DNA of 64,000 nucleotides, from NCBI GenBank assembly GCA_947561585.1, contig CANNZV010001136.1, positions 332,009-396,008 on the forward strand, written 5' to 3'. Both the position numbers and the translations under genes were made by a program. Source of the DNA: Caprella mutica (Eukaryota; Arthropoda; Malacostraca; Amphipoda; Caprellidae). The notes below the pieces were generated by a model, which saw nothing but the letters and a program-made list of their open reading frames with translations, did not search any database and was not told where the DNA came from. Shown piece after piece: positions 9,769 through 64,000 of this stretch. Every line of letters begins with the position of its first letter. The first letter of the stretch is position 1.

Positions 9769-9870
9769 CTGTACGCGTCCACAAGCTATCTAGGTATCAC
9801 AAAATAATTATATTCAATGTACTTAAATTGGTCAATATAACTCATAGCAGGATATTGCCTAGAGTTGTGA

Positions 9871-10667: not shown

Positions 10668-11105
10668 ATTGAGTAGTGGTCGAAAATTGAGTAGTGGTCG
10701 AAAATTGAGTAGTGGTCAAAAATTGAGTAGTGGTCGAAAATTGAGTAGTGGTCGAAAATTGAGTAGTGGTCGAAAATTGAGTAGTGGTCGAAAATTGAGT
10801 AGTGGTCGAAAATTGGGTAGTGGTCGGTAATTGGGTAGTGATCGAAAATTGGGTAGTGGTCGGTAATTGGGTAGTGGTCGTTAATTGGGTAGTGGTCGTT
10901 AATTGGGTAGTGGTCGTTAATTGGGTAGTGGTCGGTAATTGGATAGTGGTCAGTAATTGGGTAGTGGTCAGTAATTGGATAGTGGTCAGTAATTTGGGTA
11001 GTGGTCGGTAATTTGGGTTGTGGTCGGTAATTGGGCTGTGGTCGGTAATAGAGTAGCGGTTGGCAATTGAGTAGTGGTCGGTAATTGATTTGTTGTCAGT
11101 AATTA
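10668..11105. repeat. 18-bp minisatellite, about 24 units
   Basis: Units of GAGTAGTGGTCGAAAATT and variants (GGGTAGTGGTCGGTAATT, GGGTAGTGGTCGTTAATT), nearly all 18 bases long. Because 18 is divisible by 3, both strands stay open: the minus strand reads as TTTQFS-type hexapeptides for about 200 codons, the plus strand as VVENWV-type. Left units end in GAAAATT and right units in GGTAATT, a gradient along the array. I regard the ORFs as by-products. Confidence 0.9.
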
Positions 11106-19888: not shown

Positions 19889-19902
19889 TGGCGACAAGGA
19901 TG
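19889..19902 (+). other. Primer binding site of the Gypsy element
   Basis: TGGCGACAAGGATG begins five bases after the LTR and starts with the TGG that pairs with a tRNA CCA end. I do not assign the tRNA. Confidence 0.7.
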
Positions 19903-37540: not shown

Positions 37541-38242
37541 TTTTCTGGTATTGTACCATTTTTAAATGGTAGGTACTGCTGGTGGAACAATGATCTTTCC
37601 ATCTGAGCCCTGACCTGATCTTTGCTTGGACGCTGTTATTGCAACTAAGATAAATATATATGATATAGATATATTGTGACTTAGAATCTCTATTTGAGTG
37701 CTAATAAACATAGCTTTACTCCTGACAAAAAGTCATACAAAGAATAAGTCATACAAAGGATGGTGGACCGAGTAAGGTACTGCGCTCTAAAGTCTAATAT
37801 AGTAACCTCACCCGCAAACGAGTGTCAGTGTCATAGGTATATTTGGTTTCTAAATTTTTTATTTGGGCAGCTATCAAGTTTAAACTTAATGATGTTTGAA
37901 CTATACTAATACCGATAATATCCATTGAAAATCCATGTTAATAATACTATAGAGTATGTCAGTTTTTCAAAAGGTCAAAACTCAGATATGTCTAATTAGC
38001 TTTAAATTTTGAATTAATTCATATGTTCCCATGTTTATTTGGCTTGAAATCTTCAAAATACGAGCCAAATTGGCTTGGCTCTAAATTTTAATGAAATTTT
38101 GGCTCAAAAATTGGCTTACAATTTTTCATCCTATGAAACAGAAACATGGGCACGGAAAATATTGTAAATTAATAGAAATTCGAATTAGTAATAACTAATA
38201 AGCAAAACAAACTTCGAAAAATGATGTACCTGAGACACCCGA
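37541..38242. other. Noncoding; part carries a TTGGCT word array
   Basis: 37925-38150 has a GAATTAATTCATATGTTCCC+ATG core like elements A/C, followed by repeated TTGGCTT / TTGGCTCA / GAGCCAAATTGGCTTGGCTC words. It resembles another member of the word-array MITE group with unclear ends. The rest shows nothing. Confidence 0.4.
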
Positions 38243-39123: not shown

Positions 39124-40416
39124 CAGGGTGGGGCATAAGTTTGGAAGCAATTTTTCAAACATTAATATAATTCTTAAAAATAAGTTCCTAAGTAGGTGAT
39201 AGGATTTGAAATATAGTAGAGACACTACATTATGACGTGGCAGTGTTATATTTTACAAAAATTTAGTCAATTTAAAAATGTCAGACAAAAGAGAAGCCAT
39301 TATTGCTCTACACCGTGCCGGGAAGTCAGATTCCGTCATTTCAAAGACTCTCTCAATAGCAAGATCGACTGTTTGGAAGAGTGTGAAGCGTTTTAATGAG
39401 AGAGGAGACTTGACTGATTGTCCAAGAAGTGGTAGACCACGCCCACAATGCACCAAACAACTGATAAAATGTGCCCGAGAGAAGATCAGGAGGAACCCGA
39501 AAAGGTCAATACGATTGTTAGCCAAAACAGCTAATGTGAGTCCCAGAACAATGAGAAGAGTTGTCAAAGAAGACCTAAAGATGTCCTCTTTCACCCTCCA
39601 AAAGAGACAGACTCTGTCAGAAGCTGTAAAGAAAAAGAGATTGGAGAGAAGCAAAGCACTTCTGAGAGAATTGAAGTCTGGCACGGCTGGTGAAATTGTT
39701 TGGTCTGACGAAAAAAATTTCACAGTGGAAATGGCTCACAACCGGAGGAATGTCAGAATAATTGGTAAAAGTGCAAAAGACATCCCATACAACCAAAAAA
39801 CCGTCCACAGAACCATGAAACCTGCAAAAGTAATGGTCTGGGCCGCCGTTTCAGAAACTTGGAGATCTTTAATTTTTGTGGAACAAGGCTCCAAAATCAA
39901 TGCTAAATGTTATATTGAGAATATTTTGACGCCAATGTTGGAGTCAGCTAAGGATCACTTCGGTAATGACACTCTATGGACATTTCAGCAAGACGGCGCG
40001 ACTTCACATACTGCAAATGTCACTCAAAACTGGTGCCATGACCATCTTCCACGGTTTTGGTCCAAAGAAATGTGGCCTCCCTGCTCCCCAGATGTTAATC
40101 CTATGGACTTTTCGGTATGGTCCATTCTTAAATCAAAGGCCTGTGGTAAATTCCATCGCAGTGTGGATGATTTAAAGCGTTTGCTAAAGAGATCTTGGAA
40201 GGAAATTTCACAAGAACAGTTGCGTGCCGCAGTAGGAGGAGTTCGGAGGAGATTTGAGGCTGTTTTTAAAAACAAGGGGGACATTTTGAATACATTTATG
40301 ATTTTTGAATTCTTAAAACCCTTATGTAATAATACATAACTGTAAATTATTAAATATATTTTTCGTTGGATTATAATATGCACTTTCATTTGCTTCCAAA
40401 CTTACGCCCCACCCTG
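39124..40416 (+). mobile_element. Complete Tc1/mariner-superfamily transposon (DD37D type)
   Basis: 1293 bases with 27-base inverted repeats CAGGGTGGGGCATAAGTTTG... / ...CAAACTTACGCCCCACCCTG that differ at one position. The usual TA duplication is not evident: AT-A on the left and TTCA on the right. So one flank has changed or the exact ends differ by a base or two. It carries one uninterrupted transposase ORF. Confidence 0.9.
39278..40339 (+). CDS. Tc1/mariner-type transposase, DD37D (maT-like)
   Basis: 353 codons, uninterrupted, and close to the usual 340-360 of the superfamily. The N-terminal paired-like DNA-binding region has a helix-turn-helix (SDSVISKTLSIARSTVWKSV, residues about 17-36), a GRPR AT-hook-like motif at about 52-55, and a second HTH around SIRLLAKTANVSPRTMRRV. 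The catalytic triad is D144 (VWSDEKNF), D239 (FQQDGATSH) and D277 (VNPMDF). The 37 residues between the second and third aspartates define the DD37D signature associated with maT elements. It cuts and reinserts its own element via the flanking inverted repeats. All three catalytic residues and the linker WPPCSPD are intact. The related copy at 5459-6258 is dead. The start ATG lies about 150 bases inside the left repeat, normal for this family. Confidence 0.92.
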   Translation: MSDKREAIIALHRAGKSDSVISKTLSIARSTVWKSVKRFNERGDLTDCPRSGRPRPQCTKQLIKCAREKIRRNPKRSIRLLAKTANVSPRTMRRVVKEDLKMSSFTLQKRQTLSEAVKKKRLERSKALLRELKSGTAGEIVWSDEKNFTVEMAHNRRNVRIIGKSAKDIPYNQKTVHRTMKPAKVMVWAAVSETWRSLIFVEQGSKINAKCYIENILTPMLESAKDHFGNDTLWTFQQDGATSHTANVTQNWCHDHLPRFWSKEMWPPCSPDVNPMDFSVWSILKSKACGKFHRSVDDLKRLLKRSWKEISQEQLRAAVGGVRRRFEAVFKNKGDILNTFMIFEFLKPLCNNT

Positions 40417-42158: not shown

Positions 42159-45100
42159 ATGGCTGATGACACTACTAATGCACAGCAGTCGAGTACTGCT
42201 CTTCCAGTCAAGCAATCCACCAGTCAACCCTCTTCTGATGTACAAGAAGAAATGGTAAGTTTCTTTGTACTTTTTATTAAATGATTTAATGGTTTGTAAC
42301 ACATTAACACCTGGCTGTGTATTATTTTACATTTGTATAACTTTGAAATTTGAATATTTAATTTCTATTAACCAAGTATTGTGAATATAATATTATTTTA
42401 GTTAATAATACCTCCTAAATCTATATTGCTCGCTACTCATCACTCATTAATTATTTAATTCCAATAATGCTATCAGATGCCACAAATGACTGAGTCGTAT
42501 TCTGAAATTTTAGGCAAACCTCTACAAATGAAAATACCCGACTACTTCCCTCAAAACACTTCTAGACAATTGGTTGAAAACACTACTACAGGAAAACCTG
42601 AATCAGTGTGCAATGACAGTATTGACTCTGATAATGTAAATGTTGACAGCAAGACTGAAAATGACAATTCTCCCCAAGTTTCCCCCAACAAAATTCACAA
42701 ACAAACCAAACCCACATCACTTCCCTGTCTGTCTACTGTGACAGAGGGGAGGTACATACAATACTATTCCAATACTTCATTTGATGAAGAGGTGGAGGTA
42801 AGGCATTTATTATTGGTCTTTTGCATTGCTTAATGTTGGTGGAATGTACACACCTCTCCTAGAAATGAGATAGTCCATTTGTAGCTACATCAAATGATTC
42901 ATTTGAATTTTTATCTTTGAAATTTCTGACCTAGATTATGTAATAGATATCTCTTACATAATCAGTTTACTGTGATTTTTATCATGTGATGATAAATTAC
43001 TGATTTTTTCCAAGCTCCTTATATTCTCTATTTTTATAGATTCTCTTGCTATTTTTATTACCTGCTCTCCTTCATTAGTTTTATATTGTAAGAATGCTTT
43101 AGGCTATTTAAGATAATAAGCTACATTCTTTGTCTCTCTCTCTCTCTCTCTCTCTCGCTCATTTTATTTCTGTCATTTTATCATCAACTGCAATGAATTT
43201 TTTATGCTTGATTGTTTGATATATTGAAATTTTCTTCCTGCATGCATATGATGCTTTTAATAATCTTCAATTTGAAATAGGTAGCTAGATATGTTTGTGC
43301 AACATTTACTAATTTTGAGAAATATGTACTGGAAATGTTTTAAAATTTTAAAATTTCTGTAAGTTTTCCTTTATAGTTGCTAATTTGAATACAGTTGATT
43401 TTCTTACTTAATTTGAATTACCATGTCCATTGAATATTTATATTTACATGGTTTCTTCAAATTTCTCCATCAGAAAGTTTGATGCCTGTTAATATAGTTA
43501 TATATACTTAGATATATTAGGACTAATTAGTAATACAATATCTGATAACAGTAGGTAACAAATTATTTGTCAGTGAATGGTGGTAGGTGATTTTGTTTAT
43601 GAAGCCACTTTTCTTATTTAATTTATTTTTGTTGTCAGTGATATGGCCTTTGGTTCTGAAGCAGCACTAAGCACCCACTAAATAAATTAATATTTCTCTA
43701 ACTGGCAAATTTTCAATAAACAAGGGTTATATGTAGTTACTTTGTGTATCATTAGGCTTTTTTCTATATCTATGCCATTGCTGCAGGGTGAGGCCAAGAC
43801 TCCAGTGTATGAAGACATAGACCCTGCACAAGCTATTCTCAGTCGGCACAGACTGGCGGCTTACTTGGCATCTCCTGACTACTCAGAGGAAGAGTCCCAT
43901 GATCTGGGGCGTGAGAGACTCAATTTCGACTCTTCTGCTGTGGGTTGCCTTAGATGTGAAAAATAATTTGATCATGTTACTTGAATTCACTTTAAACTTT
44001 AAATTTCTCTTTTCGTAATACTATTTTGTTGCTTGTTTCACTAGGCTGCTCTCCCTGTTGGCAAGTGTGGGCCAGAACTAGCAGAAGCTGCTTTACGATC
44101 AGCTGGCACTGTCACTAGACTACCTAACAACACAGTCTCTTTTGTGGCAGATGATCTGCTGCAGAAGATAAAACTAACCAGTCCAACTTCTCTTGGTAGG
44201 TTCAACAGATAATCATATTAATAACTACGGTACATAAAAAATTAGTGTATTTGCTGTAATTGTAAATTTTGTTTCTATTTGTTAAATGTAAAAATAAAAA
44301 TATTGCTCCTAAATCTCAAAGTTTATTTATTAGAAATTCCTAGGGGCTCTATGATGAAACTGTCTGTGTGAATGGAAGAGTTAGAGCATGGAGTACTTTA
44401 GATCCAGAACTGTTGTAATTTGGATTCTGGATAGTCTTGGTTCCTCAGATTATAAACCTTTTACTAAATTAGATTATATAGCTTGCTATTTGAATTATAA
44501 ATTAGTTACATTTATTATAATATTATTTCCAAGCTATGGAATCAACTTGGTCTGACATTGTGTTTAAAATGACTTAGTTTTATTATTTTTATTTTAGGTT
44601 CTGGTGCTTCAACCCCCAAGTTTTCTTACCCCTATCAGCAGTACTACAGTGGAGGGTCAAACGCATCCGCCCCCCTCTCTCTGCCCCGCAGACCCCCTCC
44701 TCTAGACCCCACCCTTCTCAATGACATAGAGCGTCATGCCCGCAGACTGGCCACCAATGTGGACAGTCTCATTGAGAGTCTCACTGACGCACTGCATGGG
44801 GTGAGAAAGACGCAACCTATCTACAGTATTAATTTGGAATTATTCTCTGACCCATTCTATACTAACAGATAAAACTTCGCGTTTTTACAGTCCAGTTTAC
44901 ACCTCTTCAATTAATCACAGTTAGATGAATATAAATCAAATTTGCAATGTATAGCTACTAGCTTTTCTAACGCCTTCCATTCATATAACTGTGATTAGTT
45001 GAAGAGGTGTTATCTGAGCGGAAAAAAAGGGCATATTATCTGCTAGTATAGAATGGGCATAAGAATAATGACCATAAAATGCCACCTGTAGCAACTGTAA

Positions 45101-45790
45101 AATTGAGGAAAGGAGAATTCTTATTTCTCTGTCATTGCTTTATGTTGGTGATAATATAATTTTGATTGTATGTGTTAATATTATTTTTCATTTAAACCTC
45201 TAATAGCTACTTTCTGTAAATGACTGTTTCAGCTGACTCAAAGTTGAGCTCCATAACCTGAGTGTGATTGTTGTTATAGCTCTGTAAAATAATTTTACCT
45301 CTGACCTTATAACACACTCTTATATATTTTTATACAGGATTAGATTAACTGAATGAAAAATATATTTATTTTATATTCTAGGTAGCTATGAGCCGATTAT
45401 TGTTAAAATTTGAGTTTTAGTGATGAAGTAGGTAGGTTTGGGATATATATTTACAAATTGAGGTAAAGGCATAACTTTTAAAATAGTATTTAATACATCA
45501 ATTTAGTCTTATTATAATTTTTGAAAGAGAACCGCACTTTGTTTATATTTCCTGGGCGCCTAGTTATAAATCATTTATTTTCTTCAGAAATTAACTTCTA
45601 ATGACTTTTATGCTGGTTAGTACTTAATAAATTACTTTAAATATTAAGAGATTCATCTGTTGATTCAGTAGTTAATGGTTATCCTAAATGTTTTTCTATG
45701 TTTCAGATCTCTGCCCTGACTGTGGACTGTGTGGAGACATACAGAGACACTGTGTGTAAAACATGTGACTCTGTGGATGCTAATATCAAG
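42159..45790 (+). CDS. BORCS6: BORCS6 (lyspersin)-like BORC subunit, 5' six coding exons
   Basis: Coding exons 42159-42254, 42477-42797, 43787-43939, 44045-44195, 44598-44800 and 45707-45790, with phases that join without a break (about 336 codons so far). The start ATG has a good context (AAG ATG G). Exons 1-2 are Ser/Thr/Gln-rich and disordered. Exons 3-4 hold LNFDSSA, RLPNNTVSFVADDLLQKI and LTSPTSLG. Exons 5-6 form the start of the helical domain: IERHARRLATNVDSLIESL, then VDCVETYRDTVCK and SVDANIK. This layout (disordered N-terminus, VSFVADDLL motif, then the helix reading into VD-NIK) is what I know of BORCS6, a subunit of BORC, which recruits ARL8 to lysosomes for kinesin-driven positioning. 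The exon 3 donor (GCT|GTGGGT) is the weakest of the junctions. The remaining exon(s), with the rest of the helix, lie beyond 64000 after the satellite-filled intron. Confidence 0.78.
43133..43156. repeat. (TC)12 microsatellite
   Basis: Uninterrupted TC run in the second intron of the BORCS6 gene. Confidence 0.9.
43572..43690. repeat. Eroded copy of repeat family P in BORCS6 intron 2
   Basis: GGTGGTAGGTGATTTTGTTT, GAAGCCACTTTTC, TTGTTGTCAGTGATATGGCC and CTGAAGCAG follow the order of 16905-17025 with many changes. Confidence 0.55.
44851..45057. mobile_element. Small TIR element in BORCS6 intron 5
   Basis: 207 bases. CCCATTCTATACTAACAGAT, ACACCTCTTCAATTAATCAC+AGTTA pair with the complementary sequences ending at 45057 (GAATGGG). 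The ends are clear but no target duplication is evident. Confidence 0.7.
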
Positions 45791-47030
45791 GTGTGTAACA
45801 TGTGACTCTGTGGATGCTAATATCAAGGTGTGTAACATGTGACTCTGTGGATGCTAATATCAAGGAGTGTGTAGAATATGTGACTCTGTGGATGCTAATA
45901 TCAAGGTGTGTAACATGAGACTCTGTGGATGCTAATATCAAGGAGTGTGTAGAACATGTGACTCTGTGGATGCTAATATCAAGGTGTGTAACATGAGACT
46001 CTGTGGATGCTAATATCAAGGTGTGTAACATGTGACTCTGTGGATGCTAATATCAAGGTGTGTAACATGTGACTCTGTGGATGCTAATATCAAGGTGTGT
46101 AACATGCGACTCTGTGGATGCTAATATCAAGGTGTGTAACATGTGACTCTGTGGATGCTAATATCAAGGTGTGTAACATGAGACTCTGTGGATGCTAATA
46201 TCAAGGTGTGTAACATGTGACTCTGTGGATGCTAATATCAAGGTGTGTAACATGTGACTCTGTGGATGCTAATATCAAAGAGTGTGTAGAACATGTGACT
46301 CTGTGGATGCTAATATCAAGGTGTGTAACATGAGACTCTGTGGATGCTAATATCAAGGAGTGTGTAGAACATGTGACTCTGTGGATGCTAATATCAAGGT
46401 GTGTAACATGTGACTCTGTGGATGCTAATATCAAGGTGTGTAACATGAGACTCTGTGGATGCTAATATCAAGGTGTGTAACATGTGACTCTGTGGATGCT
46501 AATATCAAGGTGTGTAACATGTGACTCTGTGGATGCTAATATCAAGGTGTGTAACATGCGACTCTGTGGATGCTAATATCAAGGTGTGTAACATGTGACT
46601 CTGTGGATGCTAATATCAAGGTGTGTAACATGTGACTCTGTGGATGCTAATATCAAGGTGTGTAACATGTGACTCTGTGGATGCTAATATCAAGGAGTGT
46701 GTAGAACATGTGACTCTTTGGATGCTAATATCAAGGTGTGTAACATGAGACTCTGTGGATGCTAATATCAAGGAGTGTGTAGAACATGTGACTCTGTGGA
46801 TGCTAATATCAAGGTGTGTAACATGAGACTCTGTGGATGCTAATATCAAGGTGTGTAACATGTGACTCTGTGGATGCTAATATCAAGGTGTGTAACATGT
46901 GACTCTGTGGATGCTAATATCAAGGTGTGTAACATGAGACTCTGTGGATGCTAATATCAAGGTGTGTAACATGTGACTCTGTGGATGCTAATATCAAGGT
47001 GTGTAACATGAGACTCTGTGGATGCTAATA
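45786..47030. repeat. 415-bp higher-order repeat within the array
   Basis: The same series of unit variants restarts at 45786, 46201 and 46616, exactly 415 bases apart, which equals nine 37-base plus two 41-base units. It is marked by AACATGAGACTC and AACATGCGACTC variants at fixed places. Confidence 0.8.
45791..45796 (+). promoter_or_regulatory. 5' splice site of BORCS6 exon 6
   Basis: AAG|GTGTGT. Using it keeps phase 0 after the codon AAG. Failure to use it would add V-C-N-M and then a TGA at 45803-45805. The same junction recurs in most of the downstream repeat units. Confidence 0.75.
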
Positions 47031-50000
47031 TCAAGGTGTGTAACATGTGACTCTGTGGATGCTAATATCAAGGTGTGTAACATGTGACTCTGTGGATGCT
47101 AATATCAAGGTGTGTAACATGCGACTCTGTGGATGCTAATATCAAGGTGTGTAACATGTGACTCTGTGGATGCTAATATCAAGGTGTGTAACATGTGACT
47201 CTGTGGATGCTAATATCAAGGTGTGTAACATGTGACTCTGTGGATGCTAATATCAAGGAGTGTGTAGAACATGTGACTCTTTGGATGCTAATATCAAGGT
47301 GTGTAACATGAGACTCTGTGGATGCTAATATCAAGGAGTGTGTAGAACATGTGACTCTGTGGATGCTAATATCAAGGTGTGTAACATGAGACTCTGTGGA
47401 TGCTAATATCAAGGTGTGTAACATGTGACTCTGTGGATGCTAATATCAAGGTGTGTAACATGTGACTCTGTGGATGCTAATATCAAGGTGTGTAACATGA
47501 GACTCTGTGGATGCTAATATCAAGGTGTGTAACATGTGACTCTGTGGATGCTAATATCAAGGTGTGTAACATGTGACTCTGTGGATGCTAATATCAAAGA
47601 GTGTGTAGAACATGTGACTCTGTGGATGCTAATATCAAGGTGTGTAACATGAGACTCTGTGGATGCTAATATCAAGGAGTGTGTAGAACATGTGACTCTG
47701 TGGATGCTAATATCAAGGTCTGTAACATGTGACTCTGTGGATGCTAATATCAAGGTGTGTAACATGAGACTCTGTGGATGCTAATATCAAGGTGTGTAAC
47801 ATGTGACTCTGTGGATGCTAATATCAAGGTGTGTAACATGTGACTCTTTGGATGCTAATATCAAGGTGTGTAACATGCGACTCTGTGGATGCTAATATCA
47901 AGGTGTGTAACATGTGACTCTGTGGATGCTAATATCAAGGTGTGTAACATGTGACTCTGTGGATGCTAATATCAAGGTGTGTAACATGTGACTCTGTGGA
48001 TGCTAATATCAAGGTGTGTAAAACATGTGACTCTGTGGATGCTAATATCAAGGTGTGTAACATGTGACTCTGTGGATGCTAATATCAAGGTGTGTAACAT
48101 GTGACTCTGTGGATGCTAATATCAAGGTGTGTAACATGTGACTCTGTTGATGCTAATATCAAGGTGTGTAACATGTGAATCTGTGGATGCTAATATCAAG
48201 GTGTGTAACATGTGACTCTGTGGATGCTAATATCAAGGTGTGTAACATGTGACTCTGTGGATGCTAATATCACGGTGTGTAAAACATGTGACTCTGTGGA
48301 TGCTAATATCAAGGTGTGTAACATGTGACTCTGTGGATGCTAATATCAAGGTGTGTAACATGTGACTCTGTGGATGCTAATATCAAGGTGTGTAACATGT
48401 GACTCTGTTGATGCTAATATCAAGGTGTGTAACATGTGAATCTGTGGATGCTAATATCAAGGTGTGTAACATGTGACTCTGTGGATGCTAATATCAAGGT
48501 GTGTAACATGTGACTCTGTGGATGCTAATATCACGGTGTGTAACATGTGACTCTGTGGATGCTAATATCAAGGTGTGTAACATGTGACTCTGTGGATGCT
48601 ATTATCAAGGTGTGTAACATGTGACTCTGTGGATGCTAATATCAAGGTGTGTAACATGTGACTCTGTGGATGCTAATATCAAGGAGTGTGTGGAACATGT
48701 GACTCTGTGGATGCTAATATCAAGGTGTGTAACATGTGACTCTGTGGATGCTAATATCAAGGAGTGTGTAGAACATGTGACTCTGTGGATGCTAATATCA
48801 AGGTGTGTAACATGTGACTCTGTGGATGCTAATATCAAGGAGTGTGTGGAACATGTGACTCTGTGGATGCTAATATCAAGGTGTGTAACATGTGACTCTG
48901 TGGATGCTAATATCAAGGTGTGTAACATGTGACTCTGTGGATGCTAATATCAAGGTGTGTAACATGTGACTCTGTGGATGCTAATATCAAGGAGTTTGTA
49001 GAACATGTGACTCTGTGGATGCTAATATCAAGGTGTGTAACATGTGACTCTGTGGATGCTAATATCAAGGTGTGTAACATGTGACTCTGTGGATGCTAAT
49101 ATCAAGGAGTGTGTAGAACATGTGACTCTGTGGATGCTAATATCAAGGTGTGTAACATGTGACTCTGTGGATGCTAATATCAAGGTGTGTAACATGTGAC
49201 TCTGTGGATGCTAATATCAAGGTGTGTAACATGCGACTCTGTGGGTGCTAATATCAAGGTGTGTAACATGTGACTCTGTGGATGCTAATATCAAGGTGTG
49301 TAACATGTGACTCTGTGGATGCTAATATCAAGGTGTGTAACATGTGACTCTGTGGATGCTAATATCAAGGAGTGTGTAGAACATGTGACTCTGTGGATGC
49401 TAATATCAAGGTGTGTAACATGTGACTCTGTGGATGCTAATATCAAGGAGTGTGTAGAACATGTGACTCTGTGGATGCTAATATCAAGGTGTGTAACATG
49501 TGACTCTGTGGATGCTAATATCAAGGTGTGTAACATGTGACTCTGTGGATGCTAATATCAAGGAGTGTGTAGAACATGTGACTCTGTGGATGCTAATATC
49601 AAGGTGTGTAACATGTGACTCTGTGGATGCTAATATCAAGGTATGTAACATGTGACTCTGTGGATGCTAATATCAAGGTGTGTAACATGTGACTCTGTGG
49701 ATGCTGATATCAAGGTGTGTAACATGTGACTCTGTGGATGCTAATATCAAGGTGTGTAACATGTGACTCTGTGGATGCTAATATCAAGGTGTGTAACATG
49801 CGACTCTGTGGGTGCTAATATCAAGGTGTGTAACATGTGACTCTGTGGATGCTAATATCAAGGTGTGTAACATGTGACTCTGTGGATGCTAATATCAAGG
49901 TGTGTAACATGTGACTCTGTGGATGCTAATATCAAGGTGTGTAACATGTGACTCTGTGGATGCTAATATCAAGGTGTGTAACATGTGACTCTGTGGATGC

Positions 50001-53000
50001 TAATATCAAGGTGTGTAACATGTGACTCTGTGGATGCTAATATCAAGGTGTGTAACATGTGACTCTGTGGATGCTAATATCAAGGTGTGTAGAACATGTG
50101 ACTCTGTGGATGCTAATATCAAGGTGTGTAACATGTGACTCTGTGGATGCTAATATCAAGGTGTGTAACATGTGACTCTGTGGATGCTAATATCAAGGTG
50201 TGTAACATGTGACTCTGTGGATGCTAATATCAAGGTGTGTAGAACATGTGACTCTGTGGATGCTAATATCAAGGTGTGTAACATGTGACTCTGTGGATGC
50301 TAATATCAAGGTGTGTAAAACATGTGACTCTGTGGATGCTAATATCAAGGTGTGTAACATGTGACTCTGTGGATGCTAATATCAAGGTGTGTAACATGTG
50401 ACTCTGTGGATGCTAATATCAAGGTGTGTAAAACATGTGACTCTGCGGATGCTAATATCAAGGTGTGTAACATGTGACTCTGTGGATGCTAATATCAAGG
50501 AGTGTGTAGAACATGTGACTCTGTGGATGCTAATATCAAGGTGTGTAACATGTGACTCTGTGGATGCTAATATCAAGGAGTGTGTGGAACATGTGACTCT
50601 GTGGATGCTAATATCAAGGTGTGTAACATGTGACTCTGTGGATGCTAATATCAAGGTGTGTAACATGTGACTCTGTGGATGCTAATATCAAGGTGTGTAA
50701 CATGTGACTCTGTGGATGCTAATATCAAGGAGTGTGTAGAACATGTGACTCTGTGGATGCTAATATCAAGGTGTGTAACATGTGACTCTGTGGATGCTAA
50801 TATCAAGGTGTGTAACATGTGACTCTGTGGATGCTAATATCAAGGAGTGTGTAGAACATGTGACTCTGTGGATGCTAATATCAAGGTGTGTAACATGTGA
50901 CTCTGTGGATGCTAATATCAAGGTATGTAACATGTGACTCTGTGGATGCTAATATCAAGGTGTGTAACATGTGACACTGTGGATGCTGATATCAAGGTGT
51001 GTAACATGTGACTCTGTGGATGCTAATATCAAGGTGTGTAACATGTGACTCTGTGGATGCTAATATCAAGGTGTGTAACATGCGTCTCTGTGGGTGCTAA
51101 TATCAAGGTGTGTAACATGTGACTCTGTGGATGCTAATATCAAGGTGTGTAACATGTGACTCTGTGGATGCTAATATCAAGGTGTGTAACATGTGACTCT
51201 GTGGATGCTAATATCAAGGTGTGTAACATGTGACTCTGTGGATGCTAATATCAAGGTGTGTAACATGAGACTCTGTGGATGCTAATATCAAGGTGTGTAA
51301 CATGTGACTCTGTGGATGCTAATATCAAGGTGTGTAACATGTGACTCTGTGGATGCTAATATCAAAGAGTGTGTAGAACATGTGACTCTGTGGATGCTAA
51401 TATCAAGGTGTGTAACATGAGACTCTGTGGATGCTAATATCAAGGAGTGTGTAGAACATGTGACTCTGTGGATGCTAATATCAAGGTCTGTAACATGTGA
51501 CTCTGTGGATGCTAATATCAAGGTGTGTAACATGAGACTCTGTGGATGCTAATATCAAGGTGTGTAACATGTGACTCTGTGGATGCTAATATCAAGGTGT
51601 GTAACATGTGACTCTGTGGATGCTAATATCAAGGTGTGTAACATGCGACTCTGTGGATGCTAATATCAAGGTGTGTAACATGTGACTCTGTGGATGCTAA
51701 TATCAAGGTGTGTAACATGTGACTCTGTGGATGCTAATATCAAGGTGTGTAACATGTGACTCTGTGGATGCTAATATCAAGGTGTGTAAAACATGTGACT
51801 CTGTGGATGCTAATATCAAGGTGTGTAACATGTGACTCTGTGGATGCTAATATCAAGGTGTGTAACATGTGACTCTGTGGATGCTAATATCAAGGTGTGT
51901 AACATGTGACTCTGTGGATGCTAATATCAAGGTGTGTAACATGTGACTCTGTGGATGCTAATATCAAGGTGTGTAACATGTGACTCTGTGGATGCTAATA
52001 TCAAGGTGTGTAACATGTGACTCTGTGGATGCTAATATCACGGTGTGTAACATGTGACTCTGTGGATGCTAATATCAAGGTGTGTAACATGTGACTCTGT
52101 GGATGCTATTATCAAGGTGTGTAACATGTGACTCTGTGGATGCTAATATCAAGGTGTGTAACATGTGACTCTGTGGATGCTAATATCAAGGAGTGTGTGG
52201 AACATGTGACTCTGTGGATGCTAATATCAGGGTGTGTAACATGTGACTCTGTGGATGCTAATATCAAGGAGTGTGTAGAACATGTGACTCTGTGGATGCT
52301 AATATCAAGGTGTGTAACATGTGACTCTGTGGATGCTAATATCAAGGAGTGTGTGGAACATGTGACTCTGTGGATGCTAATATCAAGGTGTGTAACATGT
52401 GACTCTGTGGATGCTAATATCAAGGTGTGTAACATGTGACTCTGTGGATGCTAATATCAAGGTGTGTAACATGTGACTCTGTGGATGCTAATATCAAGGA
52501 GTTTGTAGAACATGTGACTCTGTGGATGCTAATATCAAGGTGTGTAACATGTGACTCTGTGGATGCTAATATCAAGGTGTGTAACATGTGACTCTGTGGA
52601 TGCTAATATCAAGGAGTGTGTAGAACATGTGACTCTGTGGATGCTAATATCAAGGTGTGTAACATGTGACTCTGTGGATGCTAATATCAAGGTATGTAAC
52701 ATGTGACTCTGTGGATGCTAATATCAAGGTGTGTAACATGTGACTCTGTGGATGCTAATATCAAGGTGTGTAACATGTGACTCTGTGGATGCTAATATCA
52801 AGGTGTGTAACATGTGACTCTGTGGATCTTAATATCAAGGTGTGTAACATGCGACTCTGTGGGTGCTAATATCAAGGTGTGTAACATGTGACTCTGTGGA
52901 TGCTAATATCAAGGTGTGTAACATGTGAATCTGTGGATGCTAATATCAAGGTGTGTAACATGTGACTCTGTGGATGCTAATATCAAGGTGTGTAACATGT

Positions 53001-56000
53001 GACTCTGTGGATGCTAATATCAAGGTGTGTAACATGTGACTCTGTGGATGCTAATATCAAGGTGTGTAACATGTGACTCTGTGGATGCTAATATCAAGGT
53101 GTGTAACATGTGACTCTGTGGATGCTAATATCAAGGTGTGTAACATGTGACTCTGTGGATGCTAATATCAAGGAGTGTGTAGAACATGTGACTCTGTGGA
53201 TGCTAATATCAAGGTGTGTAGAGCATGTGACTCTGTGGATGCTAATATCAAGGTGTGTAACATGTGACTCTGTGGATGCTAATATCAAGGTGTGTAACAT
53301 GTGACTGTGGATGCTAATATCAAGGTGTGTAGAACATGTGACTCTGTGGATGCTAATATCAAGGTGTGTAACATGTGACTCTGTGGATGCTAATATCAAG
53401 GTGTGTAACATGTGACTCTGTGGATGCTAATATCAAGGTGTGTAACATGTGACTCTGTGGATGCTAATATCAAGGTGTGTAGAACATGTGACTCTGTGGA
53501 TGCTAATATCAAGGTGTGTAACATGTGACTCTGTGGATGCTAATATCAAGGTGTGTAAAACATGTGACTCTGTGGATGCTAATATCAAGGTGTGTAACAT
53601 GTGACTCTGTGGATGCTAATATCAAGGTGTGTAACATGCGACTCTGTGGATGCTAATATCAAGGTGTGTAAAACATGTGACTCTGTGGATGCTAATATCA
53701 AGGTGTGTAACATGTGACTCTGTGGATGCTAATATCAAGGAGTGTGTAGAACATGTGACTCTGTGGATGCTAATATCAAGGTGTGTAACATGTGACTCTG
53801 TGGATGCTAATATCAAGGAGTGTGTGGAACATGTGACTCTGTGGATGCTAATATCAAGGTGTGTAACATGTGACTCTGTGGATGCTAATATCAAGGTGTG
53901 TAACATGTGACTCTGTGGATGCTAATATCAAGGTGTGTAACATGTGACTCTGTGGATGCTAATATCAAGGAGTGTGTAGAACATGTGACTCTGTGGATGC
54001 TAATATCAAGGTGTGTAACATGTGACTCTGTGGATGCTAATATCAAGGTGTGTAACATGTGACTCTGTGGATGCTAATATCAAGGAGTGTGTAGAACATG
54101 TGACTCTGTGGATGCTAATATCAAGGTGTGTAACATGTGACTCTGTGGATGCTAATATCAAGGTATGTAACATGTGACTCTGTGGATGCTAATATCAAGG
54201 TGTGTAACATGTGACTCTGTGGATGCTGATATCAAGGTGTGTAACATGTGACTCTGTGGATGCTAATATCAAGGTGTGTAACATGTGACTCTGTGGATGC
54301 TAATATCAAGGTGTGTAACATGCGACTCTGTGGGTGCTAATATCAAGGTGTGTAACATGTGACTCTGTGGATGCTAATATCAAGGTGTGTAACATGTGAC
54401 TCTGTGGATGCTAATATCAAGGTGTGTAACATGTGACTCTGTGGATGCTAATATCAAGGTGTGTAACATGTGACTCTGTGGATGCTAATATCAAGGTGTG
54501 TAACATGTGACTCTGTGGATGCTAATATCAAGGTGTGTAACATGTGACTCTGTGGATGCTAATATCAAGGTGTGTAACATGTGACTCTGTGGATGCTAAT
54601 ATCAAGGTGTGTAGAACATGTGACTCTGTGGATGCTAATATCAAGGTGTGTAACATGTGACTCTGTGGATGCTAATATCAAGGTGTGTAACATGTGACTC
54701 TGTGGATGCTAATATCAAGGTGTGTAACATGTGACTCTGTGGATGCTAATATCAAGGTGTGTAGAACATGTGACTCTGTGGATGCTAATATCAAGGTGTG
54801 TAACATGTGACTCTGTGGATGCTAATATCAAGGTGTGTAAAACATGTGACTCTGTGGATGCTAATATCAAGGTGTGTAACATGTGACTCTGTGGATGCTA
54901 ATATCAAGGTGTGTAACATGTGACTCTGTGGATGCTAATATCAAGGTGTGTAAAACATGTGACTCTGTGGATGCTAATATCAAGGTGTGTAAAACATGTG
55001 ACTCTGTGGATGCTAATATCAAGGTGTGTAACATGTGACTCTGTGGATGCTAATATCAAGGAGTGTGTAGAACATGTGACTCTGTGGATGCTAATATCAA
55101 GGTGTGTAACATGTGACTCTGTGGATGCTAATATCAAGGAGTGTGTGGAACATGTGACTCTGTGGATGCTAATATCAAGGTGTGTAACATGTGACTCTGT
55201 GGATGCTAATATCAAGGTGTGTAACATGTGACTCTGTGGATGCTAATATCAAGGTGTGTAACATGTGACTCTGTGGATGCTAATATCAAGGAGTGTGTAG
55301 AACATGTGACTCTGTGGATGCTAATATCAAGGTGTGTAACATGTGACTCTGTGGATGCTAATATCAAGGTGTGTAACATGTGACTCTGTGGATGCTAATA
55401 TCAAGGAGTGTGTAGAACATGTGACTCTGTGGATGCTAATATCAAGGTGTGTAACATGTGACTCTGTGGATGCTAATATCAAGGTATGTAACATGTGACT
55501 CTGTGGATGCTAATATCAAGGTGTGTAACATGTGACACTGTGGATGCTGATATCAAGGTGTGTAACATGTGACTCTGTGGATGCTAATATCAAGGTGTGT
55601 AACATGTGACTCTGTGGATGCTAATATCAAGGTGTGTAACATGCGTCTCTGTGGGTGCTAATATCAAGGTGTGTAACATGTGACTCTGTGGATGCTAATA
55701 TCAAGGTGTGTAACATGTGACTCTGTGGATGCTAATATTAAGGTGTGTAACATGTGACTCTGTGGATGCTAATATCAAGGTGTGTAACATGTGACTCTGT
55801 GGATGCTAATATCAAGGTGTGTAACATGTGACTCTGTGGATGCTAATATCAAGGTGTGTAACATGTGACTCTGTGGATGCTAATATCAAGGTGTGTAACA
55901 TGTGACTCTGTGGATGCTAATATCAAGGTGTGTAACATGTGACTCTGTGGATGCTAATATCAAGGAGTGTGTAGAACATGTGACTCTGTGGATGCTAATA

Positions 56001-56859
56001 TCAAGGTGTGTAGAACATGTGACTCTGTGGATGCTAATATCAAGGTGTGTAACATGTGACTCTGTGTATGCTAATATCAAGGTGTGTAACATGTGACTGT
56101 GGATGCTAATATCAAGGTGTGTAGAACATGTGACTCTGTGGATGCTAATATCAAGGTGTGTAACATATGACTCTGTGGATGTTAATATCAAGGTGTGTAA
56201 CATGTGACTCTGTGGATGCTAATATCAAGGAGTGTGTAAAACATGTGACTCTGTGGATGCTAATATCAAGGTGTGTAACATGTGACTCTGTGGATGCTAA
56301 TATCAATGTGTGTAACATGTGACTCTGTGGATGCTAATATCAAGGTGTGTAACATGTGACTCTGTGGATGCTAATATCAAGGTGTGTAGAACATGTGACT
56401 CTGTGGATGCTAATATCAAGGTGTGTAACATGTGACTCTGTGGATGCTAATATCAAGGTGTGTAAAACATGTGACTCTGTGGATGCTAATATCAAGGTGT
56501 GTAACATGTGACTCTGTGGATGCTAATATCAAGGTGTGTAACATGTGACTCTGTGGATGCTAATATCAAGGTGTGTAGAACATGTGACTCTGTGGATGCT
56601 AATATCAAGGTGTGTAACATGTGACTCTGTGGATGCTAATATCAAGGTATGTAACATGTGACTCTGTGGATGCTAATATCAAGGTGTGTAACATGTGACT
56701 CTGTGGATGCTAATATCAAGGTGTGTAACATGTGACTCTGTGGATGCTAATATCAAGGTGTGTAACATGTGACTCTGTGGATGCTAATATCAAGGTGTGT
56801 AACATGTGACTCTGTGGATGCTAATATCAAGGTGTGTAACATGTGACTCTGTGGATGCT

Positions 56860-59800
56860 AATATCAAGGTATGTAACATGTGACTCTGTGGATGCTAATA
56901 TCAAGGTTTGTAACATGTGACTCTGTGGATGCTAATATCAAGGTGTGTAACATGTGACTCTGTGGATGCTAATATCAAGGTGTGTAACATGTGACTCTGT
57001 GGATGCTAATATCAAGGTGTGTAACATGTGACTCTGTGGATGCTAATATCAAGGTGTGTAACATGTGACTCTGTGGATGCTAATATCAAGGTGTGTAAAA
57101 CATGTGACTCTGTGGATGCTAATATCAAGGTGTGTAACATGTGACTCTGTGGATGCTAATATCAAGGTGTGTAGAACATGTGACTCTGTGGATGCTAATA
57201 TCAAGGTGTGTAACATGTGACTCTGTGGATGCTAATATCAAGGTATGTAACATGTGACTCTGTGGATGCTAATATCAAGGTGTGTAACATGTGACTCTGT
57301 GGATGCTAATATCAAGGAGTGTGTAGAACATGTGACTCTGTGGATGCTAATATCAAGGTGTGTAACATGTGACTCTGTGGATGCTAATATCAAGGAGTGT
57401 GTGGAACATGTGACTCTGTGGATGCTAATATCAAGGTGTGTAACATGTGACTCTATGGATGCTAATATCAAGGTGTGTAACATGTGACTCTGTGGATGCT
57501 AATATCAAGGTGTGTAACATGTGACTCTGTGGATGCTAATATCAAGGAGTGTGTAGAACATGTGACTCTGTGGATGCTAATATCAAGGTGTGTAACATGT
57601 GACTCTGTGGATGCTAATATCAAGGTGTGTAACATGTGACTCTGTGGATGCTAATATCAAGGAGTGTGTAGAACATGTGACTCTGTGGATGCTAATATCA
57701 AGGTGTGTAACATGTGACTCTGTGGATGCTAATATCAAGGTATGTAACATGTGACTCTGTGGATGCTAATATCAAGGTGTGTAACATGTGACTCTGTGGA
57801 TGCTGATATCAAGGTGTGTAACATGTGACTCTGTGGATGCTAATATCAAGGTGTGTAACATGTGACTCTGTGGATGCTAATATCAAGGTGTGTAACATGC
57901 GACTCTGTGGGTGCTAATATCAAGGTGTGTAACATGTGACTCTGTGGATGCTAATATCAAGGTGTGTAACATGTGACTCTGTGGATGCTAATATCAAGGT
58001 GTGTAACATGTGACTCTGTGGATGCTAATATCAAGGTGTGTAACATGTGACTCTGTGGATGCTAATATCAAGGTGTGTAACATGTGACTCTGTGGATGCT
58101 AATATCAAGGTGTGTAACATGTGACTCTGTGGATGCTAATATCAAGGTGTGTAACATGTGACTCTGTGGATGCTAATATCAAGGTGTGTAGAACATGTGA
58201 CTCTGTGGATGCTAATATCAAGGTGTGTAACATGTGACTTTGTGGATGCTAATATCAAGGTGTGTAACATGTGACTCTGTGGATGCTAATATCAAGGTGT
58301 GTAACATGTGACTCTGTGGATGCTAATATCAAGGAGTGTGTAGAACATGTGACTCTGTGGATGCTAATATCAAGGTGTGTAGAACATGTGACTCTGTGGA
58401 TGCTAATATCAAGGTGTGTAACATGTGACTCTGTGGATGCTAATATCAAGGTGTGTAACATGTGACTGTGGATGCTAATATCAAGGTGTGTAGAACATGT
58501 GACTCTGTGGATGCTAATATCAAGGTGTGTAACATGTGACTCTGTGGATGTTAATATCAAGGTGTGTAACATGTGACTCTGTGGATGCTAATATCAAGGA
58601 GTGTGTAAAACATGTGACTCTGTGGATGCTAATATCAAGGTGTGTAACATGTGACTCTGTGGATGCTAATATCAATGTGTGTAACATGTGACTCTGTGGA
58701 TGCTAATATCAAGGTGTGTAACATGTGACTCTGTGGATGCTAATATCAAGGTGTGTAGAACATGTGACTCTGTGGATGCTAATATCAAGGTGTGTAACAT
58801 GTGACTCTGTGGATGCTAATATCAAGGTGTGTAAAACATGTGACTCTGTGGATGCTAATATCAAGGTGTGTAACATGTGACTCTGTGGATGCTAATATCA
58901 AGGTGTGTAACATGTGACTCTGTGGATGCTAATATCAAGGTGTGTAGAACATGTGACTCTGTGGATGCTAATATCAAGGTGTGTAACATGTGACTCTGTG
59001 GATGCTAATATCAAGGTATGTAACATGTGACTCTGTGGATGCTAATATCAAGGTGTGTAACATGTGACTCTGTGGATGCTAATATCAAGGTGTGTAACAT
59101 GTGACTCTGTGGATGCTAATATCAAGGTGTGTAACATGTGACTCTTTGGATGCTAATATCAAGGTGTGTAACATGTGACTCTGTGGATGCTAATATCAAG
59201 GTGTGTAACATGTGACTCTGTGGATGCTAATATCAAGGTATGTAACATGTGACTCTGTGGATGCTAATATCAAGGTTTGTAACATGTGACTCTGTGGATG
59301 CTAATATCAAGGTGTGTAACATGTGACTCTGTGGATGCTAATATCAAGGTGTGTAACATGTGACTCTGTGGATGCTAATATCAAGGTGTGTAACATGTGA
59401 CTCTGTGGATGCTAATATCAAGGTATGTAACATGTGACTCTGTGGATGCTAATATCAAGGTTTGTAACATGTGACTCTGTGGATGCTAATATCAAGGTGT
59501 GTAACATGTGACTCTGTGGATGCTAATATCAAGGTGTGTAACATGTGACTCTGTGGATGCTAATATCAAGGTGTGTAACATGTGACTCTGTGGATGCTAA
59601 TATCAAGGTGTGTAACATGTGACTCTGTGGATGCTAATATCAAGGTGTGTAAAACATGTGACTCTGTGGATGCTAATATCAAGGTGTGTAACATGTGACT
59701 CTGTGGATGCTAATATCAAGGTGTGTAGAACATGTGACTCTGTGGATGCTAATATCAAGGTGTGTAACATGTGACTCTGTGGATGCTAATATCAAGGTAT

Positions 59801-62800
59801 GTAACATGTGACTCTGTGGATGCTAATATCAAGGTGTGTAACATGTGACTCTGTGGATGCTAATATCAAGGAGTGTGTAGAACATGTGACTCTGTGGATG
59901 CTAATATCAAGGTGTGTAACATGTGACTCTGTGGATGCTAATATCAAGGAGTGTGTGGAACATGTGACTCTGTGGATGCTAATATCAAGGTGTGTAACAT
60001 GTGACTCTGTGGATGCTAATATCAAGGTGTGTAAAACATGTGACTCTGTGGATGCTAATATCAAGGTATGTAACATGTGACTCTGTGGATGCTAATATCA
60101 AGGTGTGTAACATGTGACTCTGTGGATGCTGATATCAAGGTGTGTAACATGTGACTCTGTGGATGCTAATATCAAGGTGTGTAACATGCGACTCTGTGGA
60201 TGCTAATATCAAGGTGTGTAACATGCGACTCTGTGGGTGCTAATATCAAGGTGTGTAACATGTGACTCTGTGGATGCTAATATCAAGGTGTGTAACATGT
60301 GACTCTGTGGATGCTAATATCAAGGTGTGTAACATGTGACTCTGTGGATGCTAATATCAAGGTGTGTAACATGTGACTCTGTGGATGCTAATATCAAGGT
60401 GTGTAACATGTGACTCTGTGGATGCTAATATCAAGGTGTGTAACATGTGACTCTGTGGATGCTAATATCAAGGTGTGTAACATGTGACTCTGTGGATGCT
60501 AATATCAAGGTGTGTAACATGTGACTCTGTGGATGCTAATATCAAGGTATGTAACATGTGACTCTGTGGATGCTAATATCAAGGTTTGTAACATGTGACT
60601 CTGTGGATGCTAATATCAAGGTGTGTAACATGTGACTCTGTGGATGCTAATATCAAGGTGTGTAACATGTGACTCTGTGGATGCTAATATCAAGGTGTGT
60701 AACATGTGACTCTGTGGATGCTAATATCAAGGTGTGTAACATGTGACTCTGTGGATGCTAATATCAAGGTGTGTAAAACATGTGACTCTGTGGATGCTAA
60801 TATCAAGGTGTGTAACATGTGACTCTGTGGATGCTAATATCAAGGTGTGTAGAACATGTGACTCTGTGGATGCTAATATCAAGGTGTGTAACATGTGACT
60901 CTGTGGATGCTAATATCAAGGTATGTAACATGTGACTCTGTGGATGCTAATATCAAGGTGTGTAACATGTGACTCTGTGGATGCTAATATCAAGGAGTGT
61001 GTAGAACATGTGACTCTGTGGATGCTAATATCAAGGTGTGTAACATGTGACTCTGTGGATGCTAATATCAAGGAGTGTGTGGAACATGTGACTCTGTGGA
61101 TGCTAATATCAAGGTGTGTAACATGTGACTCTATGGATGCTAATATCAAGGTGTGTAACATGTGACTCTGTGGATGCTAATATCAAGGTGTGTAACATGT
61201 GACTCTGTGGATGCTAATATCAAGGAGTGTGTAGAACATGTGACTCTGTGGATGCTAATATCAAGGTGTGTAACATGTGACTCTGTGGATGCTAATATCA
61301 AGGTGTGTAACATGTGACTCTGTGGATGCTAATATCAAGGAGTGTGTAGAACATGTGACTCTGTGGATGCTAATATCAAGGTGTGTAACATGTGACTCTG
61401 TGGATGCTAATATCAAGGTATGTAACATGTGACTCTGTGGATGCTAATATCAAGGTGTGTAACATGTGACTCTGTGGATGCTGATATCAAGGTGTGTAAC
61501 ATGTGACTCTGTGGATGCTAATATCAAGGTGTGTAACATGTGACTCTGTGGATGCTAATATCAAGGTGTGTAACATGCGACTCTGTGGGTGCTAATATCA
61601 AGGTGTGTAACATGTGACTCTGTGGATGCTAATATCAAGGTGTGTAACATGTGACTCTGTGGATGCTAATATCAAGGTGTGTAACATGTGACTCTGTGGA
61701 TGCTAATATCAAGGTGTGTAACATGTGACTCTGTGGATGCTAATATCAAGGTGTGTAACATGTGACTCTGTGGATGCTAATATCAAGGTGTGTAACATGT
61801 GACTCTGTGGATGCTAATATCAAGGTGTGTAACATGTGACTCTGTGGATGCTAATATCAAGGTGTGTAGAACATGTGACTCTGTGGATGCTAATATCAAG
61901 GTGTGTAACATGTGACTTTGTGGATGCTAATATCAAGGTGTGTAACATGTGACTCTGTGGATGCTAATATCAAGGTGTGTAACATGTGACTCTGTGGATG
62001 CTAATATCAAGGAGTGTGTAGAACATGTGACTCTGTGGATGCTAATATCAAGGTGTGTAGAACATGTGACTCTGTGGATGCTAATATCAAGGTGTGTAAC
62101 ATGTGACTCTGTGGATGCTAATATCAAGGTGTGTAACATGTGACTGTGGATGCTAATATCAAGGTGTGTAGAACATGTGACTCTGTGGATGCTAATATCA
62201 AGGTGTGTAACATGTGACTCTGTGGATGTTAATATCAAGGTGTGTAACATGTGACTCTGTGGATGCTAATATCAAGGAGTGTGTAAAACATGTGACTCTG
62301 TGGATGCTAATATCAAGGTGTGTAACATGTGACTCTGTGGATGCTAATATCAATGTGTGTAACATGTGACTCTGTGGATGCTAATATCAAGGTGTGTAAC
62401 ATGTGACTCTGTGGATGCTAATATCAAGGTGTGTAGAACATGTGACTCTGTGGATGCTAATATCAAGGTGTGTAACATGTGACTCTGTGGATGCTAATAT
62501 CAAGGTGTGTAAAACATGTGACTCTGTGGATGCTAATATCAAGGTGTGTAACATGTGACTCTGTGGATGCTAATATCAAGGTGTGTAACATGTGACTCTG
62601 TGGATGCTAATATCAAGGTGTGTAACATGTGACTCTGTGGATGCTAATATCAAGGTGTGTAACATGTGACTCTGTGGATGCTAATATCAAGGTATGTAAC
62701 ATGTGACTCTGTGGATGCTAATATCAAGGTGTGTAACATGTGACTCTGTGGATGCTAATATCAAGGTGTTAACATGTGACTCTGTGGATGCTAATATCAA

Positions 62801-64000
62801 GGTGTGTAACATGTGACTCTTTGGATGCTAATATCAAGGTGTGTAACATGTGACTCTGTGGATGCTAATATCAAGGTGTGTAACATGTGACTCTGTGGAT
62901 GCTAATATCAAGGTATGTAACATGTGACTCTGTGGATGCTAATATCAAGGTTTGTAACATGTGACTCTGTGGATGCTAATATCAAGGTGTGTAACATGTG
63001 ACTCTGTGGATGCTAATATCAAGGTGTGTAACATGTGACTCTGTGGATGCTAATATCAAGGTGTGTAACATGTGACCTCTGTGGATGCTAATATCAAGGT
63101 ATGTAACATGTGACTCTGTGGATGCTAATATCAAGGTTTGTAACATGTGACTCTGTGGATGCTAATATCAAGGTGTGTAACATGTGAATCTGTGGATGCT
63201 AATATCAAGGAGTGTAACATGTGACTCTGTGGATGCTAATATCAAGGGTTGTAACATGTGACTCTGTGGATGCTAATATCAAGGTGTGTAACATGTGACT
63301 CTGTGGATGCTAATATCAAGGTGTGTAACATGTGACTCTGTGGATGCTAATATCAAGGTGTGTAACATGTGACTCTGTGGATGCTAATATCAAGGTGTGT
63401 AGAACATGTGACTCTGTGGATGCTAATATCAAGGTGTGTAACATGTGACTCTGTGGATGCTAATATCAAGGTATGTAACATGTGACTCTGTGGATGCTAA
63501 TATCAAGGTGTGTAACATGTGACTCTGTGGATGCTAATATCAAGGAGTGTGTAGAACATGTGACTCTGTGGATGCTAATATCAGGTGTGTAACATGTGAC
63601 TCTGTGGATGCTAATATCAAGGAGTGTGTGGAACATGTGACTCTGTGGATGCTAATATCAAGGTGTGTAACATGTGACTCTGTGGATGCTAATATCAAGG
63701 TGATGTTAACATGTGACTCTGTGGATGCTAATATCAAGGTTGTAACATGTGACTCTGTGGATGCTAATATCAAGGTGTGTAACATGTGACTCTGTGGATG
63801 CTGATATCAAGGTGTGTAACATGTGACTCTGTGGATGCTAATATCAAGGTGTGTAACATGCGACTCTGTGGATGCTAATATCAAGGTGTGTAAACATGCG
63901 ACTCTGTGGATGCTAATATCAAGGTGTGTAACATGTGACTCTGTGGATGCTAATATCAAGGTGTGTAACATGTGACTCTGTGGATGCTAATATCAAGGTG
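56860..64000. repeat. 3678-bp direct duplication within the array
   Basis: Rare variants recur at a constant offset of 3678 bases: GACTCTATGG (57449/61127), GACTTTGTGG (58237/61915), the 34-base unit with TGTGACTGTGG (about 58463/62141), ATCAATGTGTG (58671/62349) and GGTTTGTAAC (56904/60582). The second copy has a few extra indels after about 62700. Confidence 0.85.

Follow-up and report, generated by a model that had tools for sequence, protein, structure and literature searches.

A minisatellite of exon-end copies carrying 5′ splice sites at the start of BORCS6 intron 6 in Caprella mutica

In the amphipod Caprella mutica, intron 6 of the lysosome-positioning gene BORCS6 opens with an array of about 700 sense copies of the end of the preceding coding exon, nearly all of which carry a GT at the copied exon border, while the coding exons on both sides of the array remain open. 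Taking the data as a whole, we consider it probable that the array is a passive intronic expansion, tolerated since the first donor wins by its position.

Results

The array and the gene extend over two contigs

The window analysed is a stretch of 64,000 nucleotides whose end coincides with the end of its contig, C1136 (396,008 bp); the array therefore breaks the assembly. A DNA search of the assembly identified contig C3240 (68,941 bp) as the array's other side (Table 1). There, 681 bp of intron separate the last array junction from exon 7, entered at TTTTTTGCAG/TCAATGTACC (here and below, the slash marks a splice junction), and 608 bp lie between exons 7 and 8. Since the gene is split across C1136 and C3240, we infer that these contigs hold opposite sides of a single array, their tips not being joined in the assembly. 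In the best register, a tip-to-tip comparison gave 48% unit identity (15/69 informative units), and the DNA aligned at 97.2% over 3.9 kb; as this is below the 99.6% seen within C3240, the tips may or may not overlap. The visible array as assembled measures 26,447 bp (18,210 + 8237), or 703 units plus the exonic copy, and would total about 22.5 kb if the tips overlap.

A 27-mer of the unit, searched in the 903-Mb assembly with up to two mismatches, had 691 matches, of which 478 were forward in the window and 213 reverse on C3240; the backward control pattern had 0 in the same 903 Mb. With every match in the window or on C3240, a dispersed satellite is ruled out, and the array is a single locus in this assembly. 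Furthermore, the flank holding exons 5 and 6 had one full-length match among the best 40 of 1015 candidates and the flank holding exons 7 and 8 one among the best 40 of 8042; no second full-length match, as a second haplotype would give, was found among these two sets, and the remaining flank matches among the scored candidates were dispersed repeats within introns.

Table 1. Coordinates of the BORCS6 exons and of the array (window positions unless a contig is named)
Feature	Position	Strand	Remarks
BORCS6 exon 1, coding part	42159..42254	+	ATG-started open frame; donor ATG/GTAAGT
BORCS6 exon 2	42477..42797	+	splice sites and phase
BORCS6 exon 3	43787..43939	+	splice sites and phase; donor GCT/GTGGGT picked to hold the frame
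BORCS6 exon 4	44045..44195	+	splice sites and phase
BORCS6 exon 5	44598..44800	+	splice sites and phase; PF10157 match begins here
BORCS6 exon 6	45707..45790	+	84 nt, 28 codons, phase 0; ISALTVDCVETYRDTVCKTCDSVDANIK
Exonic 39-mer from which the array unit derives	45752..45790	+	encodes VCKTCDSVDANIK
37/39-bp array of exon-end copies	45791..64000	+ (sense)	starts at donor 1 (AAG/GTGTGT), cut by the contig end
Array continuation	C3240:60705-68941	minus	8237 bp, ends ATATCAAG/GTGTGACTTC
BORCS6 exon 7	C3240:60023-59947	minus	77 nt, past the far side of the array
BORCS6 exon 8	C3240:59338-59278	minus	61 nt, with stop codon

BORCS6 is open across the array

Exons 1–8, spliced in silico (1–6 from the window, 7 and 8 from C3240), yield 1146 nt with 381 open codons and a stop. 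The earlier note had named the gene BORCS6, and the protein joined from the two contigs bears this out, matching Pfam PF10157 (BORCS6) with an E-value of 1e-41 (141.6 bits, cut-off 35) over essentially the full profile (100 residues, 34–133, against 100 profile positions, 2–101 of 101). The BORC subunit 6 chain of a solved structure, 9tqb_B, matches with an E-value of 7.8e-22, and the exon 6/7 junction is ungapped in this alignment. As exons 1–8 join into an open frame, 100 residues match 100 profile positions and the 9tqb_B alignment passes from exon 6 to exon 7 without a gap, nothing of the array belongs in the protein.

Exon 6 itself had been proposed as a real, in-frame exon with a clean acceptor; its borders (TTTCTATGTTTCAG/ATC and CAAG/GTGTGT) and phase agree, and the discovery of exons 7 and 8 beyond the array strengthens the assignment. 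The exon 6 stretch aligns in 13 of 15 homologues, and DANIK/SMYQ, which spans the exon 6/7 junction, is unbroken in 13 of the 15 aligned homologues, the region being absent from fragment P0053. One Homarus protein (P0034) departs from the alignment immediately after DANIK, which fits an exon boundary at this point. The best matches of BORCS6 are decapod proteins (Scylla: 53% over 64%); within the 73 residues of exons 6–8 the domain is 75% identical to that of Scylla, and in a comparison by eye the N-terminal part has words in common with an amphipod fragment from Trinorchestia. The other introns of the gene measure 105–989 bp. Minus the array, intron 6 is, at 681 bp, similar to its neighbours; with it, the intron is at least ~23 kb long and, should the contig tips not overlap, ~27 kb.

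Units and junctions of the array

Tandem Repeats Finder (TRF) reports the array at 45760–64000, with a period of 37, 485 copies and 95% matches, in agreement with the sense array of more than 18 kb originally described, which C3240 extends by 8237 bp. The repeat has the form of a minisatellite (VNTR), whose highly alike units of 10–100 bp stand head to tail: counting the exonic copy as the first, the window holds 485 full units; C3240 holds 219, and 346 of these 704 equal the 37-bp consensus exactly. A unit length of 39 bp had been given; such units do occur (154 of the 486 pieces into which the window part was decomposed), but the commonest unit is 37 bp (322 of 486). Across the window and C3240 we count 58 distinct unit sequences, and the order of the variants differs between the two. 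On C3240, blocks of units recur, a 102-unit shift retaining 87% of the units and 99.6% of the bases over 4.4 kb; the window half has a weaker, 98-unit register in which 43% of the units are retained. Units that occur only once number 8 of 61 in the last eighth of the window units and 0–3 of 60–61 in every other eighth, an excess near the tip that may reflect base errors at the contig end.

The units carry a donor at the exon border. With donor 1 counted, GT is present at 702 of the 704 junctions of the window and C3240, AG/GT at 616 and AAG/GTGTGT at 569; within the window, 482 of 484 have GT at +1/+2 and 386 match AAG/GTGTGT exactly, which upholds the claim of hundreds of near-identical donors. 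At 68 of 704 junctions (53/484 in the window, 15/220 on C3240) an extra GA precedes the GT (GGA/GT); GA is the commonest insertion in array units, and its position is the junction. The donor core varies by 0.40% per position and the rest of the unit by 0.76% in a count that excludes insertions. Since insertions fall outside this count and the commonest of them sits at the junction, we make no claim of selection on the donor. The poly(A) signals AATAAA and ATTAAA are absent from both array halves, which gives no sign that U1 protection against early polyadenylation would be needed.

The unit was copied from a conserved coding exon

The exonic 39-mer at the end of exon 6 recurs unchanged in 31 array units, 19 of them in the window and 12 on C3240. 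The peptide that it encodes is conserved in arthropods, and its CKTCD is retained in 13 of the 15 aligned homologues (the exceptions are a starfish, where it is not kept, and fragment P0053, in which it is missing); the exon is therefore of long standing, and the array was copied from it.

The word GTGTG is common to both edges of the 39-mer: it occurs as GTGTGT in the exon, where it forms Val-Cys codons, and as GTGTGA after the last unit. GTGTGA is found at 1 of the 704 junctions, the last (AAG/GTGTGA), which leads into unique intron, and probably represents the original start of intron 6. Because GTGTGT matches exonic codons and GTGTGA is confined to the last junction, the bases on the intron side of every decoy donor appear to be former coding sequence. 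Thus the earlier description of the unit, as the last 39 bases of the exon plus its donor, is right about the exon end and not about the donor, the native one probably standing at the last junction alone.

Consequences of donor choice

Read-through past donor 1 adds VCNM and then a TGA, as had been noted (a stop after four codons). Joining a later unit end to exon 7 was computed for the 484 in the window, and all of them (484/484) gave one and the same 340-residue protein, which ends in KVCNM and lacks what exons 7 and 8 encode; the first array unit already contains the stop. Since all later window unit ends give this early stop, only donor 1 yields full BORCS6. With donor 2, the last exon junction follows the stop at a distance of 99 nt; under the mammalian rule, a message with a stop in such a position is expected to decay.

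Donor 1 has no advantage of sequence, its nine bases being identical in 569 of the 704 junctions (itself counted). The predicted U1 duplex is −5.9 kcal/mol for donor 1 and −6.5 kcal/mol for the 30 GTATGT junctions, and ranges from −4.4 to −10.1 kcal/mol for the gene's other native donors. Nor is predicted RNA folding that would hide the decoys supported, the three constructs folded being less stable than their shuffles (z +2.5 to +4.8). Donor 1 closes an exon of 84 nt whose acceptor is ordinary, donors 2–6 would give exons of 121–277 nt, and from donor 7 onward the exon would exceed 300 nt; with five further donors giving exons under 300 nt, exon definition would not by itself necessarily favour donor 1. 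Beyond possible donor competition, exon extension and slow splicing, sequestration of U1 by the array had been raised as a further consequence. Human cells hold roughly a million U1 particles each, and with ~700 sites per transcript such an effect looks unlikely on numbers.

Other repeats and features

Intron 5 contains a palindromic, MITE-like element of ~215 bp (44849–45065), which occurs on many other contigs and on both strands at 78–83% identity on the better strand (at least; among the best 40 of 1015 candidates). In the tail of intron 6, between the array and exon 7, C3240 has a dispersed repeat of ~310 bp (segment L011:5117-5439), found on many contigs at 87–89% identity (at least; among the best 40 of 8042 candidates). 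Upstream of the gene, the window holds an open transposase frame of 353 codons (39278–40339) with DDE_3 and HTH domains, which we read as Tc1/mariner-like and whose inverted ends were located by eye near 39125 and 40418, and a retroelement (19900–23984) with Gag-like and pol-like frames (reverse transcriptase, RNase H, integrase). TRF detects smaller minisatellites at 8471–9771 (32 bp x 41) and 10667–11087 (18 bp x 23), and no tandem repeat at 36001–38000, where GC skew is strong (0.40) and GC content is raised to 0.44.

In the assembly at large, COX1-family frames without internal TGA and of bacterial appearance are present on C2, C8, C4109, C5186 and other contigs; many COX1 frames are of this kind, which suggests that bacterial contigs are part of the assembly. 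A COX1 that bears TGA, and requires TGA to be read as Trp, occurs twice on C5068, 15,426 bp apart. It shares 94% identity with COX1 of the whale louse Cyamus ovalis (Amphipoda, Caprelloidea, Cyamidae), other amphipods being the next named matches, which places the source animal among amphipods close to Cyamidae.

Discussion

Origin and tolerance of the array

The two edges of the exonic 39-mer suggest how the array may have begun. Slippage or unequal exchange between the GTGTG in the exon and the GTGTG opening intron 6 would double exactly 39 bases in tandem, placing GTGTGT inside and leaving GTGTGA last, which fits the data. A 37-bp copy, arising by a 2-nt deletion, would then have spread through the array, and whole blocks of units would have been amplified by unequal exchange to more than 20 kb. 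Every new copy would come to lie downstream of the original exon end, closing in AAG/GT.

Provided that the spliceosome takes donor 1, all later copies are intron and the protein is unchanged, and the array could then grow at little cost. We propose that donor 1 is favoured as the copy nearest to a real 3′ splice site, the one that closes a short, 84-nt exon; since position, and not sequence or structure, sets donor 1 apart, exon definition of the first copy is the favoured route. Later donors would be used rarely, with possible leakage to the next few, and all of them would lead to one truncated and probably unstable mRNA.

Alternative explanations

The array might instead act as a brake on splicing, if the decoys were used often enough to cut BORCS6 output and array length tuned expression between alleles or tissues. 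The same donors do recur every 37–39 nt, the later window unit ends all converge on the one stop after KVCNM, which for donor 2 precedes the last junction by the 99 nt given above, and in IFI6 repeat units further downstream reportedly act as donors (PMC4526556). We nevertheless regard this as unlikely: the coding exons of BORCS6 are still open and conserved, which requires that enough transcripts be correctly spliced, and no upkeep of the donors by selection is seen in the array, where GA, the commonest insertion, hits the junction itself. A more intricate proposal starts from the fact that nearly every unit begins with GT and ends with AG, which would allow a self-correcting cassette, in which the routes from several hundred donors would converge on one mRNA with an efficiency set by array length; we judge such a cassette quite improbable. 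It would require that a transcript spliced at a later donor be respliced from donor 1 to the AAG that has come to lie beside exon 7, regaining the exact message. AG/GT at 616 of 704 junctions would permit this, the unit AG has 8 pyrimidines among the 16 bases from −20 to −5, as few as the acceptor of exon 2 (8/16), and each unit AAG is preceded by TGCTAAT, which we take to be branch-like (yUnAy). However, the gene's other six acceptors hold 11–15 pyrimidines of 16, and only ~8 nt separate the branch-like A from the AG that follows it in the same unit, so that resplicing of this kind seems very improbable.

Two further readings question the locus rather than its splicing. An assembler may have inflated the array from a few units; the contigs break within the array on both sides, and one-off units are denser near the window tip. 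Assemblers collapse arrays more often than they expand them. Against inflation, the two contigs hold independent stretches in which the 58 distinct units follow one another in unlike order, and each is tied to BORCS6 by a unique flank of its own, making this reading highly improbable. Alternatively, the array could already have silenced this copy of BORCS6, leaving a dead gene or allele, and an intron of at least some 23–27 kb among introns of at most 989 bp is in keeping with such a loss. The 381 open codons, the 75% identity to Scylla in the exon 6–8 region and flanks that have no second copy among the scored candidates (best 40 of 1015 and of 8042) all speak against it, and we consider it extremely improbable. 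Passive expansion within the intron, with donor 1 favoured by position, is the reading that we retain.

Significance

If so, the BORCS6 array amounts to a natural experiment in how the spliceosome selects one 5′ splice site among many: as most copies share the nine junction bases and most of the 37-bp context, it is mainly position that can separate the true site from ~700 decoys in a gene that is conserved. It would also exemplify repeat growth from coding sequence without harm to the protein, copies on the intron side leaving with the intron. Should output depend on array length after all, an ordinary gene would possess a hypervariable splicing dial.

Comparison with known systems

The closest small-scale parallel is the minisatellite of the interferon gene 6-16 (IFI6), which has a unit of 12 bp. 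Turri, Cuin and Porter reportedly described it in 1995 as a minisatellite with multiple splice donors. As in BORCS6, a minisatellite lies at an exon end and 5′ splice sites fall within its units; the accessible portion of one source reports two downstream repeat units as donors, giving three mRNA species (PMC4526556). In contrast, BORCS6 has ~700 units of 37/39 bp derived from the end of a conserved coding exon, and its later donors are all predicted to lead to the same early stop, where the IFI6 account, in that portion, has three mRNA species.

Tandem duplication of an AGGT-bearing exon segment has been put forward as a source of introns (Rogers 1989), with ATP2A1 and potato RdRp as examples (PMC4974935, PMC3443670), and fission yeast offers a repeated 24-bp AGGT exon segment (Zhu & Niu 2013, as cited in PMC4974935). 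The likeness is considerable: in BORCS6, too, a coding AG/GT segment, here the end of exon 6 with its conserved peptide, was tandemly duplicated and the copies turned intronic, and, as in the excerpted description of potato RdRp, the donor comes from formerly exonic bases. The BORCS6 case differs in that intron 6 existed beforehand and duplication went on to hundreds of copies; moreover, judged by gene structure alone, intron 6 has its 3′ splice site next to exon 7 and outside the array, whereas in the Rogers type both splice sites come from the duplicates.

Long intronic tandem arrays that must be transcribed and removed are also known from protein-coding genes: the giant introns of the Drosophila Y-linked genes kl-3 and kl-5 contain simple satellites such as AATAT and reach up to megabases, and the available extract of that source, unlike our array, describes no copies of exon junctions (PMC6508621). 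Minisatellites likewise lie within introns of hTERT, as VNTRs (PMC2915984), and of an earthworm metallothionein gene, in intron 1 (PMC12783039); units copied from the neighbouring exon end, as in BORCS6, are not described in the passages available from these two sources. The earlier note knew of no described case of this scale. This stands for scale, as our searches of the open-licence PMC literature yielded no exon-end-derived array of comparable size, but IFI6 and the 24-bp AGGT repeat of fission yeast are small precedents for the principle. Relative to these, what is new here is the scale of the BORCS6 array and its source, the end of a conserved coding exon.
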